In this document: piece by piece, positions 52,303 through 52,553 of the stretch
Numbering within the stretch: the stretch's first letter is position 1
Layout of the letters: the number at the start of each line of letters is the position of its first letter
Assembly (NCBI GenBank): GCA_905221605.1
Contig: CAJNDS010002110.1
Location: 235,001 to 299,000, forward strand
Length of the DNA stretch: 64,000 nucleotides
Direction: 5' to 3'
Source of the DNA: Symbiodinium natans
Lineage: Eukaryota > Sar > Dinophyceae > Suessiales > Symbiodiniaceae
Notes under the pieces: generated by a model
Databases searched by the model: none
The model's input: the letters and a program-made list of their open reading frames with translations, nothing else
Told to the model about the DNA's origin: nothing
Translations under genes and position numbers: made by a program

Positions 52303-52553
52303 ACTTGCTTTGTTTTTTGTTTAACTTTTTTTGGGGGGGCGGGGAGGGAGGAGTGGCCATGTTGGGCGTATTGTACCCGCCAGGGACCTCAAGCCTTCAG
52401 TTGAGGGTTTAGGGTTTAGGGTTTAGGCCCTAAACCCTAAACCCTAAACCCTCAACTGAAGGCTTGAGGTCCCTGGCGGGTACAATACGCCCAACATGGC
52501 CACTCCTCCCTCCCCGCCCCCCCAAAAAAAGTTAAACAAAAAACAAAGCAAGT
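52303..52553. repeat. Perfect 251-bp palindrome centred on head-to-head telomere-like repeats
   Basis: The left arm 52303-52427 and right arm 52429-52553 are exact reverse complements over 125 bases with a one-base centre at 52428. The centre reads GGGTTTAGG, then c, then CCTAAACCC. The arms run outward through about three heptamers and then about 100 bp of unique DNA, including a T7-G7 homopolymer pair. Confidence 0.97.

Follow-up and report, generated by a model that had tools for sequence, protein, structure and literature searches.

The locus described here raises the question of how a short piece of DNA came to be followed immediately by its own exact mirror image, and whether this happened in the genome or during assembly. 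"The window" denotes the whole stretch of DNA that was analysed, with a length of 64 kb; it contains no N and has a G+C content of 49-60% per 2 kb.

A perfect palindrome with a heptamer centre

Positions 52303-52553 form an inverted duplication without a single mismatch. The left arm (52303-52427, forward strand) and the right arm (52429-52553, reverse strand) have 125 bases each, are complementary at 125 of 125 positions when pairing is computed outward from the centre of symmetry, and are separated by one base only (C at 52428). The same pair of arms was recovered by the repeat search. From outside to inside, the left arm consists of approximately 97 non-heptamer bases followed by about four heptamer units (TTGAGGG-TTTAGGG-TTTAGGG-TTTAGG), and this order is mirrored across the single spacer base. 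The centre is thus made of TTTAGGGTTTAGGTTTAGG-type heptamers that meet head to head, GGGTTTAGG-C-CCTAAACCC. A run of T7G7 within the left arm (52326-52339, forward strand) has its exact mirror, C7A7, at 52517-52530. Upon folding as single-stranded DNA, the element is predicted to form a single stem in which 124 pairs close a loop of 3 bases (-169.7 kcal/mol, z -34).

The original prediction, which was made from the letters alone, had described two exactly complementary arms around one base, a head-to-head heptamer centre and a turning point inside the heptamers, and the perfect palindrome is confirmed in all of these respects. It had also claimed that a whole segment has been mirrored rather than two arrays being placed face to face. 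This holds as well. The approximately 97 non-heptamer bases of each arm are found at full length nowhere else in the window. A search with this 97-base core returned two full-length places, which are the two arms; another 89 matches at E<=10 were partial. Among the best 13 of these 89, which were inspected, the top three cover 42-45 bases with 77-81% identity and are T/G-rich runs.

The symmetry ends abruptly. Past base 125 of either arm the pairing breaks down, with offsets 126-128, 131-138, and 141 as the first 12 mismatches, while the window continues outward for 52,302 and 11,447 bases, respectively. On the left, a heptamer CCCTAAA (52297-52303, reverse strand) reaches the edge, its last base being the first base of the arm. 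The right outer flank (52554-52565, forward strand) reads GAGGGACAAAGG and is unlike the left one. A target-site duplication was not found at the edges of the palindrome, where the flanks (CCCTAA and GAGGGA) have no direct repeat in common. When 1 kb of left flank was compared to 1 kb of right flank, heptamers made up a fraction of 0.35-1.0 of the tracts that gave the best 40 matches. Because each arm carries approximately 97 non-heptamer bases and the sequences beyond the two outer edges differ, the palindrome is a short, two-ended event.

The palindrome ranks first among 1326 inverted pairs within 3 kb; the second-ranked pair has 126 bases with 81% identity and 752 bases between its arms, and none of the other pairs among the best 25 of the 1326 has a spacer below 100 bases. 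In an ungapped hairpin scan of the window with loops of 0-39 bases, the palindrome scores 125 and the runner-up 43 (47 of 49 arm bases). Once the palindrome is removed, the longest perfect arm left in the window has 18 bases (loops 0-40), and in dinucleotide-preserving shuffles it has 9-16 bases in 20 of 20 cases. With an arm of 125 bases to be set against these values, an origin by chance is excluded.

Heptamer tracts are frequent and randomly oriented

TTTAGGG has been described as the telomere repeat of dinoflagellates and plants (PMC11453091, PMC11508785). Exact heptamers occur 700 times in the window (383 CCCTAAA, 317 TTTAGGG), and all but 38 of them lie beyond 20 kb. Dense tracts of mixed orientation extend over 20000-36000 and 43000-63600. 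They are absent from 36001-40000, which lies within the reading frame of a retrotransposon. Between 48 and 62 kb, the heptamers cover 16.5% of the sequence when exact, 28% when one mismatch is permitted and 48% when two are. The tandem-repeat survey of the window covered 150 of 166 entries, and the comparison of the window to itself covered part of the 757 entries with a heptamer fraction <0.4.

There are 121 runs of at least two exact units, which merge into 97 arrays (48 G-type and 49 C-type). Along the window, their orientation switches 55 times, where 48.5 +- 4.9 switches are expected for random orientation. Such an arrangement fits many independent insertions or rearrangements. We also considered that the region may be a decayed chromosome end. 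A decayed telomere should retain a single orientation, and the random orientation of the arrays therefore disfavours this interpretation. As heptamers fill the whole window, their presence at the centre of the palindrome is unremarkable in itself. The same applies to its edges. On the left the boundary coincides with CCCTAAA and on the right with GAGGG, which could be taken as microhomology in heptamers at the boundaries, but with a local coverage of 16.5-48% so much of the surrounding sequence is heptamer-like that the coincidence carries little weight.

At three places in the window (near 30568, 52415, and 63580), heptamers face each other head to head at a distance of no more than 8 bases. 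Only at the contact near 52415 does a perfect mirror extend beyond the heptamers. Around the junction near 30568 the mirror is imperfect (71-77% over 93-107 bases), as it is around that near 63580 (92% over 39 bases), and by eye both consist of heptamers and degenerate heptamer-like sequence. These two junctions are plausible precursors of such palindromes.

Sequence collections were also searched. A 24-base piece of the arm has no match in viral_contigs, a viral collection. The head-to-head heptamer pattern was found neither in viral_contigs nor in genome_contigs, which says little since these collections are by description viral and prokaryotic. Four heptamers in a row occur in nine stretches of viral_contigs; none of the nine has a head-to-head junction, and none has a perfect hairpin arm of more than 14 bases (loops 0-20).

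Other hairpins and coding content of the window

Two near-perfect hairpins of 109 bases are located at 63007-63115 and 11083-11191, with 47 and 46 of 49 arm bases paired, respectively. They are 98% alike over 115 bases and have the ends CCCAAAGAG...CTCTTTGGG. The region 51509-51568 is 82% similar to half of one of them. Both are flanked by 2-base repeats (CA/CA and TC/TC), which is suggestive only. The pair may belong to a MITE or introner family; hairpin introners have been described in the dinoflagellate Amoebophrya (PMC7789003). The 17-base end of this hairpin was found in five stretches of viral_contigs, and we attribute this to chance, based on a rough estimate with an assumed collection size. 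Two further hairpins of about 100 bases are imperfect. One, at 56850-56950, has 38 of 42 arm bases paired and follows immediately upon a heptamer tract. The other, at 51404-51498, has 28 of 31 arm bases paired, starts with TACCC and ends with GGGTA. In addition, a tandem repeat of 145 bases (4990-5352, 2.5 copies, 99% match) contains inverted copies of GTAATCCAGGCGTCCGCCGG.

The only long reading frame of the window (35393-42673, reverse strand) is uninterrupted and codes for a copia-type retrotransposon protein of 2426 aa. It matches the Pfam profile RVT_2 (5.1e-14), and a CCHC zinc knuckle is just above the cut-off while the integrase profile rve is below it. The protein presumably resembles counterparts from Symbiodinium-like dinoflagellates, and six peptide patterns taken from it have no match in viral_contigs. 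Pfam profile searches covered 10 + 3 of the 46 reading frames of at least 130 aa. A frame at 7115-7849 (reverse strand) has a weak match to C-5 cytosine methylases (24.9 bits, cut-off 22), in which no single stretch passes E 0.001, and ten other frames of 131-178 aa have no match at E<=0.01. tRNAs were not found in the window by ARAGORN in its bacterial setting. A piece resembling LSU rRNA (18471-18599, reverse strand) just reached the gathering score of 50 (with 50.1) when the whole window was searched, and was absent when 18000-19000 was searched alone. The dinoflagellate spliced leader has no match in the window at up to three mismatches, which weakens the case for a dinoflagellate. The DNA looks eukaryotic and may come from an alga.

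Strand switching in heptamers as the probable origin

We think it rather probable, if by no means assured, that the palindrome is a small inverted duplication which arose when DNA synthesis went wrong at telomere-type heptamers. A growing strand would have entered a TTTAGGG tract and then switched to the complementary strand, or onto itself when folded at a small, older head-to-head heptamer junction. It would then have copied in reverse, out of the tract and through approximately 97 bases of adjoining DNA, before resuming its original course, which would leave mirror arms of 125 bases between two different flanks. Perfect arms, a 1-base spacer and abrupt, differing edges are the pattern expected of two nearby strand switches. 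We infer the switching mechanism, which of the arms is the older, and that the duplication is probably recent.

The size of the spacer is informative with respect to the mechanism. In fold-back priming, the bases of the loop remain as a spacer (PMC3907307), and a single base is too small for a plain fold-back unless the loop bases pair with one another. It rather speaks for a switch from one strand to the other, or for extension that started at an older and smaller head-to-head palindrome. Of the foldback duplication primed in the heptamers that the original prediction had offered as one explanation, the mirror duplication seeded in heptamers has been retained, while a plain fold-back is less favoured than a strand switch or an older palindrome. 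A short fold-back loop could, however, be hidden in self-complementary bases such as GGCCC at the centre.

Short-range template switching, as described for the events covered by one study (PMC7954356), typically acts on near-perfect inverted repeats and renders them perfect. Within the gold-standard ape set of that study, 65.0% of the events lengthen the sequence, and the copied stretch has a median of 12 and a maximum of 128 bases. By this comparison, the 125 bases of the present case are at the upper end of what has been described and extreme relative to the median.

Homopolymer runs readily change their length. The identity of T7G7 and C7A7 thus indicates that the copy is young, or that the arms have been kept alike by gene conversion, or that the structure is an artefact. 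An older palindrome whose arms were made alike by gene conversion could also account for the perfect match.

The leading alternative, although we consider it unlikely, is an assembly artefact, in which two loci or alleles with the 125-base arm in common (one with the left flank next to the arm, the other with the reverse complement of the right flank next to it) were joined head to head via their heptamers, or in which one side of a foldback read was prolonged through another incorrect overlap. Heptamer tracts are abundant here, re-use of one sequence would make the arms exactly identical, homopolymers included, and foldback reads are a known artefact of long-read sequencing that may recur at the same places (PMC12870357; the tool described there makes its call when the turn is within 10% of the read midpoint). 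Moreover, palindromes whose arms are long and similar and have little or no spacer between them have been reported to be difficult to clone and to carry a higher risk for genome stability (PMC7999016); this lowers the likelihood that such a structure persists and raises that of an assembly error. Such palindromes do persist, however, as the same source counts 718 near-perfect ones of more than 200 bases in the human genome. A foldback read alone would have mirrored the left flank also, but the sequence differs from the 126th base on, so that an artefact would require either two errors or two true copies. A single chimeric foldback read, which the original prediction had named as the artefact explanation, fails on its own to yield two different flanks at 125 bases from the centre, and it is only a compound assembly error to which we assign the probability stated above. 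The window is free of N, and a second full-length copy of the arm was not found elsewhere in it, both of which argue against an artefact.

Fusion of sister chromatid ends after telomere loss, for which inverted repeats have been described (PMC3463808), would yield identical arms joined in TTTAGG/CCCTAAA, and the 1-base asymmetry would mean that one sister end was a base shorter than the other. It would require, however, a second break a mere 125 bases from the first, and each side has no more than about four heptamers. The arms that remain after fusion cycles are usually much larger, and we regard this origin as improbable. A true telomere-to-telomere fusion of two chromosome ends with subsequent inversion, which had also been proposed from the head-to-head centre, we hold to be extremely unlikely: both sides have the same sequence for 125 bases instead of two different ends or subtelomeres, the central tracts are short (about four units per side), and the two orientations are mixed at random in the window. 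A mobile element of the foldback or MITE-like kind, with long terminal inverted repeats and, by accident, heptamers at its centre, is considered very unlikely. The other hairpins of about 100 bases (63007-63115, 11083-11191, 56850-56950, and 51404-51498) show that such elements may exist here, but the palindrome lacks a target-site duplication (...CCCTAA on the left, GAGGGA... on the right), a second full-length copy in the window and any sequence between its arms, and its ends are dissimilar to those of the other hairpins. A mobile element was rejected on the first two of these grounds and on the dissimilar ends.

Strand switching in heptamers could be extended to the whole region. The tracts in this lineage would then recurrently trigger strand switching, their head-to-head meetings would seed hairpins that copy neighbouring unique DNA in mirror, and the imperfect 100-base hairpins described above would be older, decayed products. 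We find this generalization quite doubtful. Apart from being a site that forms a hairpin and is potentially unstable, the palindrome is assigned no function here.

Comparison with known systems

With the short-range template switches of the four-point model (PMC7954356), the palindrome shares the formation of nearby perfect inverted repeats by reverse copying and return. It differs from the events reported there in its copied length (125 bases against a median of 12 and a maximum of 128), in being centred in telomere-type repeats, and in that it is known from the duplicated arrangement alone. Foldback inversions and inverted duplications at short inverted repeats (PMC10622511, PMC3907307; a replication-fork model is given in PMC10766183) likewise begin their mirror duplication at a small inverted repeat. 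In the cases described in these sources, however, a spacer lies between the short inverted repeats, whereas it is a single base here, and the duplications are large and end in a telomere, a translocation or a second inversion, whereas the present arms have 125 bases and the sequence continues on both sides. Interstitial telomeric sequences from break repair and that at human 2q13 (PMC7215372) have in common with our locus that telomere-type repeats occur away from chromosome ends, at 2q13 also head to head. The 2q13 sequence is attributed to a fusion, while here one sequence has been mirrored and the tracts recur throughout the window. Heptamer-centred palindromes in dinoflagellates are not named in the titles and abstract openings listed from the open-licence literature that we consulted, which is on related topics and not exactly on this one.

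In summary, the palindrome is a further instance of a mutational process that is already known, here in an unusual setting, and by itself it is one mutation and not a system. If real, it would make an instability hotspot testable with long reads, and it provides a clean, young example of how mirror duplications could be seeded by internal telomere-type repeats where such tracts are dense.
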